Shown here: positions 6,258 to 7,125 of the stretch, piece by piece
Layout of the letters: every line of letters begins with the position of its first letter
How positions within the stretch are numbered: position 1 is the first letter of the stretch
Notes under the pieces: model-generated
Database searches by the model: none
What the model was told of the DNA's origin: nothing
Seen by the model: only the letters and a program-made list of their open reading frames with translations
Position numbers and translations under genes: made by a program
From: Cyclobacteriaceae bacterium
GTDB lineage: Bacteria > Bacteroidota > Bacteroidia > Cytophagales > Cyclobacteriaceae
DNA length: 64,000 nucleotides
NCBI GenBank assembly: GCA_016787665.1
Contig: JAEUUC010000002.1
Coordinates: forward strand, 124,001-188,000
Direction: 5' to 3'

Positions 6258-6298
6258 TTAAAAATAAAAATCCCGGTCTGCGGCTGCATCCGGGATTT
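6258..6298 (-). terminator. Intrinsic terminator of the minus-strand structured RNA
   Basis: On the minus strand AAATCCCGG (6298-6290) pairs with CCGGGATTT (6276-6268) in a nine-base-pair stem around a 13-nt loop, followed by a T-rich run to 6258. The T-tract lies only on the minus-strand 3' side. It sits seven bases downstream of the tRNA-like fold and 57 bases upstream of fadD, so it ends an independent RNA transcript. Confidence 0.85.
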
Positions 6299-6304
6299 CA
6301 CTCG

Positions 6305-6488
6305 CTGTAGGGGAAGGCTTCGAACCTCCACGAGGAAGTTAGCTACAGAACACATTTAGAACTGTGGTGGTCAACCCCAGTCAGCCTCTGAACGGTTACC
6401 CGGTCAAGGGCTGGCGTTATTCTGCGTTTATCCTTTGCTCCTCACCCCCGAGACAGGAGGGCTTGTCTGCCAGTTTCAACACCCTACA
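6305..6488 (-). ncRNA. Structured RNA with a class II tRNA-like fold and a ~100-nt insertion in the variable arm
   Basis: Read on the minus strand, TGTAGGG (6488-6482) pairs with CCCTACA (6312-6306) as a seven-bp acceptor stem. T8 and G9 follow, then a D arm (TTG, loop AAACTGGCAGA, CAA) with A14, G18-G19 and A21. The next arm has stem CCCTC/GGGGG and loop CTGTCTC. The T arm is GGAGG-TTCGAAG-CCTTC with T54, T55, C56, A58 and the G53-C61 pair. Between the last two arms, GAGGA (6443-6439) pairs with TCCTC (6336-6332) around a 102-nt insert. The insert contains its own hairpin, CAGCC...GGCTG capped by CGG-GTAA-CCG. The formal anticodon would be GUC with an unusual U37, and no CCA is encoded. A 5' hairpin (ATCAGC/GCTGAT) precedes it. 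I found no tmRNA tag, group I core or RNase P signature. Identity is unknown; the folding was done by eye. Confidence 0.5.
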
Positions 6489-6534
6489 TTATGCATCAGC
6501 GCTCGTTTGTGCTGATTTTTTGCATTTGATGATT

Positions 6535-6566
6535 CAAAGTAAGTGAATTACTGATATTCTGTTCAA
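6535..6566 (-). promoter_or_regulatory. Possible promoter of the tRNA-like RNA
   Basis: On the minus strand a TTG (6566-6564) precedes TTACTTTG (6542-6535), near the Bacteroidota -7 consensus TAnnTTTG, with a 22-base spacer. The -33 element lies inside the left arm of the 12-bp inverted repeat described next. The match is imperfect. Confidence 0.35.
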
Positions 6567-6618
6567 TTATAGATGCCAATAATTGCATAATATTTAATGA
6601 TTTGAGCTATAATTGAAC
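6561..6618. promoter_or_regulatory. 12-bp perfect inverted repeat in the divergent RNA/lrp intergenic region
   Basis: GTTCAATTATAG (6561-6572) and CTATAATTGAAC (6607-6618) are exact reverse complements separated by 34 AT-rich bases. The centre-to-centre distance is 46 bp, a little over four helical turns. The left arm overlaps the putative -33 element of the minus-strand RNA. The right arm ends 12 bases before the Lrp-family start codon. This fits an operator for the adjacent Lrp/AsnC regulator, whose family members bind as multimers to spaced, A/T-rich inverted sites and often autoregulate. Binding is inferred. Confidence 0.6.
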
Positions 6619-6630
6619 AAATTTCAAATT

Positions 6631-7125
6631 ATGAAGCCCAAACCGCATCGAAATTATGAGATCGATAATACCGACCTCAAAATTCTGGAAATGCTCGTTC
6701 AAGACGCCAAAAAGCCCTTCACAGAAGTAGCGCGCAAAGCCCATGTTTCGCAAGGGACGGTTCATGTGCGGGTTTCCAAGATGCAAGACGCAGGCGTGAT
6801 TGAGAAAACCACCCTTAAGCTAAACTATGCCCGGTTGGGTTACGATATCACGGCTTTCATTGGTATTTATCTGGAAAAGAGCGCTTTATACGAATCAGTG
6901 CTCGAGAAACTTAAGCTCATTCCGGAGATCACCAGCATTCATTACACCACGGGCAACTACTCCATGTTCGTGAAGATTCATTGCCGCGATACCAACCACC
7001 TGAAAGAGGTTTTGCACGACAAAATGCAGCAGGTGGATGGCATTGAGCGAACGGAAACCATGATCTCGCTGGAGGAAAGCCTGGATCGATCGCTGCTCTC
7101 GGAAAATAATTTAAAACCCGCCTAG
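6631..7125 (+). CDS. Lrp/AsnC family transcriptional regulator
   Basis: A 164-residue one-domain-plus-RAM regulator. The N-terminal winged helix (IDNTDLKILEMLVQDAKKPF, then the recognition helix VSQGTVHVRVSKM at about residues 36-48) is followed by an alpha-beta RAM ligand-binding/oligomerisation domain. I choose the ATG at 6631; an upstream in-frame TTG at 6613 would start inside the inverted-repeat operator and has no clear ribosome-binding site. It is divergent from the tRNA-like RNA and ends three bases before another inverted repeat that precedes sufB. The ligand is unknown; a feast/famine amino-acid sensor is the usual role. Confidence 0.93.
   Translation: MKPKPHRNYEIDNTDLKILEMLVQDAKKPFTEVARKAHVSQGTVHVRVSKMQDAGVIEKTTLKLNYARLGYDITAFIGIYLEKSALYESVLEKLKLIPEITSIHYTTGNYSMFVKIHCRDTNHLKEVLHDKMQQVDGIERTETMISLEESLDRSLLSENNLKPA

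Follow-up and report, generated by a model that had tools for sequence, protein, structure and literature searches.

The minus strand between positions 6304 and 6490 of the window (the whole 64,000-nucleotide stretch of DNA analysed here) holds a complete tRNA-like cloverleaf whose variable arm contains an insertion of 102 nt, and this raises the question of what such an RNA does if it does not read codons. The acceptor, D, anticodon, variable and T stems all lie on this strand where a preliminary description had drawn them, including the variable-arm stem, in which GAGGA (6443–6439) pairs with TCCTC (6336–6332) around the 102 nt. The features of the locus are as follows.

6304–6490, minus strand: tRNA-like RNA, from U1 (6488) to G73-C74 (6305–6304), with 2 nt of 5′ flank included
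6482–6488, minus strand: 5′ strand of the acceptor stem, UGUAGGG
6463–6479, minus strand: D arm, a 3-bp stem UUG/CAA with a Leu-like loop, AAACUGGCAGA, containing G18-G19
6445–6461, minus strand: anticodon arm, loop C-U-G-U-C-U-C with GUC, U37 and C38
6439–6443, minus strand: 5′ strand of the variable-arm stem, GAGGA, with compensatory changes at two pairs
6418–6425, minus strand: 5′ strand of the inner helix of the insert, GCAGAAUA, pairing with 6352–6345; covariation in the alignment
6380–6416 (approximate limits), minus strand: extra hairpin with a GNRA loop, specific to the window and missing in most relatives
6367–6378, minus strand: GGGGUUGACCAC element of the distal insert, conserved; in phage copies a palindrome begins ~2 nt beyond it
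6345–6352, minus strand: 3′ strand of the inner helix of the insert, UGUUCUGU; covariation in the alignment
6332–6336, minus strand: 3′ strand of the variable-arm stem, UCCUC, pairing with GAGGA
6313–6329, minus strand: T arm, GGAGG-UUCGAAG-CCUUC
6306–6312, minus strand: 3′ strand of the acceptor stem, CCCUACA, with A72 at 6306, followed by G73 (6305) and C74 (6304)
6260–6297, minus strand: terminator-like hairpin AATCCCGG/CCGGGATT with a T run, read from the sequence, its loop being too long for the terminator scan
6561–6618, no strand assigned: candidate regulator site in the gap separating the RNA from asnC, a 12-bp inverted repeat GTTCAATTATAG...CTATAATTGAAC
6631–7125, plus strand: divergent gene for an AsnC-type regulator (168 bits to PRK11179 AsnC; 43% identity to E. 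coli AsnC, 2cg4)

Structure and transcription of the RNA

Folding of the window RNA as a single sequence did not single it out (z = −0.93) and was dropped as a proof of the RNA. Of 39 related genomes searched at the DNA level, 26 contained relatives. When 20 sequences were aligned with MAFFT and checked against a structure drawn for one of the relatives, pairing held in 96.5% of cells, as against 53–63% with slid partners, and nine pairs were changed on both sides. Among 94 non-redundant copies from hosts and phages, 46 of them viral, the proportion of paired cells was 99.7% in the acceptor stem, 97.5% in the D stem, 98.7% in the anticodon stem and 93.2% in the T stem. Compensatory changes were present in all four alike, including the acceptor and T stems, on which the preliminary description had made its reading depend. 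The tRNA-like structure at 6304–6490 is not the product of chance, and the features associated with tRNA-like maturation (four covarying stems, elbow bases and a tRNA-like 3′ end) are present.

The insert elaborates the variable arm and has a covarying helix of its own. Its conserved part consists of a helix of 6–8 bp, an internal loop and the GGGUUGACCAC element; a second insert helix (GCAAGGUA/UGCCUUGC in one relative) covaries, as do the variable-arm stem and the T stem. Most copies are ~150 nt long, and alignment of the relatives assigns to the window copy an extra hairpin of ~37 nt that contains a GNRA loop. The GNRA-capped hairpin described earlier does exist in the window copy, but these ~37 nt are absent from most relatives. 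We rejected a pseudoknot between UGUCUC of the anticodon loop and GGGAYA of the insert, which is not consistently kept and in which the invariant side leaves covariation uninformative. In three phage members of 93 nt (L227 498–590, L221 6699–6791 and L274 5460–5552) a normal-looking short variable arm replaces the insert. Given that these members keep the GUCUC loop and U1-A72-G73, the insert is dispensable in some phages.

Of 133 host loci, 98 have a terminator-like hairpin followed by a T run no more than 100 nt downstream of the RNA, a combination absent from the shuffles; this supports the earlier suggestion that the RNA is transcribed independently, as a unit of its own, from a promoter that is conjectural. 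Just upstream of U1, at window positions 6495–6516, the hairpin ATCAGC...GCTGAT may be a 5′ leader hairpin and can also be read as a terminator of the plus strand; inspection of relatives by eye did not show it.

On its 5′ side the RNA has a divergent neighbour of the Lrp/AsnC family, of AsnC type, at 99 of the 136 host loci with enough flank, usually at a distance of 85–250 nt; at ~27% of host loci this neighbour is missing. The regulator of the window scores 168 bits against the AsnC model, under the strict cut-off of 227, compared with 84 for LrpA and 44 for Lrp. fadD adjoins the RNA only in the closest relatives, and, apart from the AsnC-type regulator, the neighbour survey found no ligase or transferase gene conserved beside the RNA. 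In E. coli, asnC adjoins the asparagine synthetase gene asnA and controls it, and by analogy the RNA occupies the place where asnA would be. A conserved regulator site between asnC and the RNA was considered and rejected, since intergenic inverted repeats with arms of at least 10 are only slightly more frequent than in shuffles (13 versus 5 of 100) and too little conserved.

Invariant positions and known RNA classes

Positions 34–38 read GUCUC in 91 of the 94 non-redundant copies, and the pair U1-A72 is found in 93 of them while the rest of the acceptor stem varies; G2-C71, an element of bacterial tRNA-Asp along with G1-C72 and G10, is present in 92. G73 occurs in every copy of this set, but ending in GC was a filter for inclusion, and the set U1-A72-G73-C74, found in 247 of 250 distinct copies, was likewise counted only among copies ending in GC. 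Every observed loop variant has U at position 37; position 33 can be U, C or G, and position 10 is variable. Given that sequence variation is greater among phage copies than among host copies, the positions that stay invariant are informative. Some short members of 113–126 nt (L003 1715–1832, L082 1501–1613 and L081 1501–1626) have altered loops (CGAUCUC, CUUUCUC and CGGUCUC), and one such member stands in tandem with a normal copy; altered loops of this kind in rare second copies (CGAUCUC, CUUUCUC) speak against the role in asparagine formation proposed below.

U33 is required in a codon-reading tRNA, and its position 37 is normally a purine. As the RNA does not keep U33 and has U37 in place of a purine, decoding is unlikely and the RNA is probably excluded from the ribosome. 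The preliminary description had also doubted that this is a decoding tRNA, and the variable position 33 and fixed U37 bear it out.

The strong determinants of Asp identity are G73, G34, U35, C36 and C38, and in the amidation of Asp-tRNA-Asn U1-A72 is a determinant, with G1-C72 and U20a as antideterminants (2023 review, PMC9976931). The RNA has the complete Asp set and neither antideterminant, with U1-A72 in place of G1-C72 and a D loop that continues after GG as CAGA or CAGC. The tRNA-Asp of the window genome has the loop CUGUCAC and G1-C72, and the loop of the RNA, CUGUCUC, differs from it only by the change of A37 to U. Among the tRNAs of this genome, which were collected region by region, only tRNA-Asn and tRNA-Gln have U1-A72. 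These two are the natural substrates of GatCAB.

The RNA looks like tRNA-Asp at its anticodon and like tRNA-Asn at its acceptor, a combination that should let an ordinary AspRS charge it and amidation follow. The anticodon GUC, which had been thought not to fit a long-arm tRNA, turns out to be its most informative part, as the loop is that of an Asp anticodon. Counting against strong charging, the RNA is without G1-C72 and G10, which are used by bacterial tRNA-Asp, so that charging by AspRS may be weak. In the ordinary tRNAs of these genomes C74 is mostly encoded and C75-A76 is not; with G73-C74 encoded in the same manner, the 3′ end of the RNA resembles that of a tRNA awaiting CCA.

A search against 4227 Rfam families gave nothing over the gathering threshold, and the confident match to a known family for which the preliminary description had proposed to look was not found there. 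The best hit, sraL, reached 28.2 bits against a cut-off of 39 and 20.4 bits in a relative, and was judged to be chance; the L31 leader and other weak Rfam matches were under cut-off and not common to relatives. ARAGORN called no tRNA gene at the RNA. A tmRNA was likewise rejected, there being no RF00023 or ARAGORN tmRNA match here; the only over-threshold tmRNA of the genome lies elsewhere and is a separate, genuine one, in agreement with what had been said of the locus before. We found no description of the RNA in the open-licence literature.

Comparison with known systems sets the RNA between several of them. With tRNA-Asn of the indirect pathway (AspRS or non-discriminating AspRS with GatCAB, transamidosome) it shares the Asp determinants 34, 35 and 73, U1-A72, dependence on GatCAB and, by prediction, the making of Asn on the RNA. 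It differs from tRNA-Asn in having GUC and not GUU, so that an ordinary AspRS would suffice, in not being built to decode, and in its Leu-like core, enlarged variable arm (an insert of ~100 nt here) and own AsnC-linked gene; a tRNA-Asn identity was rejected because the anticodon is GUC and not GUU in nearly all copies. Replacement of tRNA-Asp was rejected as well, since the host and several phages have an ordinary tRNA-Asp. The D loop and long-variable-arm body are those of tRNA-Leu and other type II tRNAs, and the covariance model R1 matches tRNA-Leu weakly, at roughly 25–62 bits. Unlike tRNA-Leu, the RNA has G73 and U1-A72 instead of A73, a GUC loop and an arm several times longer. For LeuRS the determinant is A73, where the RNA has G73; for SerRS, by determinants from the literature, G73 is present but A72 stands instead of C72.

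A long variable arm is also found in allo-tRNAs and tRNA-Sec-like RNAs, and GUC is among the commonest anticodons of allo-tRNAs (PMC7609411). By the definition given there the RNA is not an allo-tRNA, as it is 7/5 acceptor/T pairing that covaries and not 8/4 or 9/3; it also has a Leu-like D arm and a much larger insert. In tmRNA, too, tRNA ends are combined with a large insert, and some of the same phages carry both molecules, but the RNA does not match the tmRNA model. Finally, like the phage RNAs ROOL and GOLLD (PMC12286853), it occurs near tRNA islands, and loop self-association is suggested for its phage copies; in contrast to them it is tRNA-like, 144–174 nt long in most phage copies and not a large cage-forming RNA, and it is also chromosomal.

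GatCAB, asparagine synthesis and proposed function

Covariance model R1 matches 269 of 289 good-quality genomes of the order, some of the weaker matches being ordinary tRNAs, and a phylum-wide search gave strong matches in three more families of the class and in one family outside it; weak matches of 85–89 nt, up to ~62 bits, are ordinary type II tRNAs. The pattern is found in Cytophagales (Cyclobacterium, Algoriphagus, Dyadobacter, Spirosoma and others), Chitinophagales (Chitinophaga, Niabella and Saprospiraceae) and Sphingobacteriales (Pedobacter and Sphingobacterium), and it matches at least 120 IMG/VR contigs. These searches show a conserved tRNA-like RNA family shared by many environmental Bacteroidota and by their phages. 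Tandem copies, up to five or six, are present in many genomes; at five loci (L036, L041, L045, L054 and L055) they form arrays of 3–5 near-identical copies with a spacing of ~195–210 nt.

If GatCAB acts on the RNA, genomes that have the RNA must have GatCAB, and a test of co-occurrence could have failed. gatB was present in 50 of 50 genomes with the RNA and in 16 of 40 genomes in which a permissive search for the RNA found nothing above 57.3 bits (p = 1e-11 ignoring phylogeny, an optimistic value since the genomes are related). Retention of GatCAB often serves only the synthesis of Gln-tRNA, and several of the genomes lacking the RNA do keep GatB, on which Gln depends if there is no GlnRS. A sharper test is provided by genomes that encode AsnRS as well as GlnRS, since these two synthetases make GatCAB unneeded for translation. 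Here gatB was found in 11 of 11 genomes with the RNA and in 0 of 12 without it (p = 7e-7, again ignoring phylogeny and optimistic for the same reason). The window genome is one of these 11, and the contrast holds inside families (G391 versus G316 in f23, G321 versus G331 in f24). The RNA is strictly tied to GatCAB in the genomes tested, and AsnC and GatCAB as genomic partners point to amino-acid metabolism.

We also compared the asparagine synthetases of the two groups. Housekeeping AsnB (PRK09431, cut-off 499) scored 716–946 bits in the five genomes without the RNA that were tested, compared with 228–338 bits, below the cut-off, for 15 AsnB-like proteins from eight genomes with the RNA, that of the window included; these 15 resemble other amidotransferases equally well. 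Judged from how split matches are laid out, an interpretation that sequence comparison backs only for the proteins scored above, housekeeping AsnB occurs in 10 of the 12 dual-synthetase genomes without the RNA and in 0 of 20 genomes with it. AsnA is found in 3 of 20 genomes with the RNA. Two genomes with the RNA (G034 and G134) have no AsnA and no AsnB-like protein over the cut-off, and two without it (G331 and G359) have no AsnA and no clear housekeeping AsnB. Most genomes with the RNA hold AsnB-like proteins that pass the TIGR01536 cut-off, so Asn need not come from the RNA alone; these common proteins, and AsnA in 3 of 20, rule out the RNA as the only source everywhere.

These data allow us to propose, with what we consider an even chance of being right, that the RNA is a dedicated non-decoding tRNA paralogue and a predicted carrier for the amidation of Asp to Asn. 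With its U1 start and G73-C74 end, the transcript would be matured like a tRNA by RNase P, RNase Z and CCA addition. Ordinary AspRS would charge it with Asp through G34, U35, C36, C38 and G73, and U1-A72 would make the Asp-RNA acceptable to GatCAB for conversion to Asn-RNA, a reaction suggested by this determinant and by the co-occurrence. The lost U33, the fixed U37 and the giant variable arm would keep the RNA off the ribosome, where it would otherwise put Asn at Asp codons, and the Asn would then be released or handed on. In the host, synteny suggests that the AsnC-type regulator probably sets the level of the RNA by asparagine supply, much as AsnC does for asnA in E. coli. Phages would bring their own copies, as they do with tRNAs, and these are probably dimerising. 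A wider claim, to which we give somewhat less than an even chance, is that serving as a covalent carrier for making an amino acid is the only job of the RNA, that it has its own amino-acid-sensing regulator, that in a large part of Bacteroidota it stands in, together with GatCAB, for the housekeeping asparagine synthetase, and that phages bring a dimerising form.

GatCAB might instead be kept by a non-discriminating AspRS, as in Bdellovibrio, that makes Asp-tRNA-Asn, with the RNA doing something else that is lost with GatCAB, for example as a scaffold of an AspRS–GatCAB transamidosome or as a regulator. Action of such an AspRS on tRNA-Asn has been shown in bacteria with AsnRS, GlnRS and GatCAB, and Bacteroidetes are among the candidates for this route (PMC4206432). 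The tRNA-Asn of the window genome does have U1-A72, and transamidosomes that hold tRNA are described in the literature. However, at two signature positions the AspRS of Bacteroidia has K, L or F and mostly SK or AK, alike in genomes with and without the RNA, and not the H and G that we take to mark non-discriminating enzymes; the missing signature disfavours the route, short of proof. As a bystander RNA would not need the complete Asp set together with U1-A72, we regard this explanation as unlikely. The non-decoding loop, tRNA-like ends and Asp determinants would equally suit a charged tRNA-like donor that passes Asp or Asn to a non-ribosomal acceptor (a peptide, a lipid or a protein N terminus) without producing free Asn, and such a donor would agree with carriage by phages that have few or no other tRNAs. 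It is improbable in view of the lack of a conserved ligase or transferase beside the RNA other than the AsnC-type regulator, and of the complementary distribution with housekeeping AsnB, which points to Asn supply.

We judge just as improbable a tRNA-derived regulatory RNA, controlled by AsnC and copied by phages, that acts as a decoy for AspRS or GatCAB or pairs with targets through its GUCUC loop. The divergent transcription factor gene, the constant 5-nt loop, the multicopy arrays and phage carriage would all be in keeping with such a role, but the loop is made of tRNA-Asp identity positions, the conservation of U1-A72-G73-C74 implies use of the 3′ end, and a decoy leaves the tie to GatCAB in dual-synthetase genomes unexplained. 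The preliminary description had favoured a tRNA-derived regulatory RNA; derivation from a tRNA stands, whereas regulation in the sense of a base-pairing small RNA does not, conservation being at the positions recognised by synthetase and amidotransferase. A specialised tRNA-Asp that does decode and has an extended arm, for use in stress or by phages, would explain the GUC anticodon in a 7-nt loop and the presence of the RNA in phage tRNA arrays. Against this, position 33 varies among U, C and G, U37 is fixed, an ordinary tRNA-Asp is present in phages and host as well, and U1-A72 would invite amidation and the misreading of Asp as Asn, all of which make it very improbable indeed.

If the RNA is a carrier for amidation, it would be a tRNA freed from translation and working as a metabolic cofactor. 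It would also explain how some Bacteroidota could make asparagine without a known synthetase and would answer, for Bacteroidota, the question of why bacteria with AsnRS and GlnRS keep GatCAB (PMC4206432). The RNA would be filed as a tRNA variant in a known pathway; should the mechanism hold, a non-decoding RNA given over to amino-acid synthesis would be of a new kind. Mechanism aside, an RNA present in most species of an order and in many phages, outside Rfam and missed by ARAGORN, represents an annotation gap.

Phage copies

Of 80 phage contigs sampled, 78 have a full-length copy, and in the other two it is cut by the contig end. Many copies belong to arrays that hold as many as 26 tRNAs and a tmRNA, others beside one tRNA or none, and their neighbours include genes for the terminase large subunit and PhoH. 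For named phage hosts, two queries against 50,697 phage records gave no match.

In 84% of distinct phage segments, compared with 26% of shuffles, GACCAC is followed at a distance of ~2 nt by a perfect palindrome of 6 nt or more; for palindromes of 8 nt or more the values are 66% and 6.5%. Host copies have no excess of palindromes at 29%, against 27% in shuffles. More than 20 different palindromes occur in phages, including GCGCGC, GUGCAC and GCUUGCAAGC. Given that their sequence changes while self-complementarity is kept, and that a hairpin needs no self-complementary centre, dimers are suggested, and the phage copies probably dimerise through this self-complementary loop. In a subset of phage copies (L242, L265, L276, L219 and L264) extra hairpins lie in the D loop between its AAA and GGCAGA parts.

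A second phage RNA family was also observed, with constant tRNA-like ends (AGTCAGGTGGCG ... ACAGGTTCGAATCCTGTCCTGACTAC) around an insert that is different in nearly every copy. It comprises 124 elements in 84 contigs, with at most 6 copies per contig, and 109 of the inserts fall into 83 clusters; sites include L216 (4210–4393, 4532–4679, 4975–5100 and 11991–12117), L234, L249, L210 and L420–L498. These elements look like hypervariable RNAs built on a tRNA scaffold.
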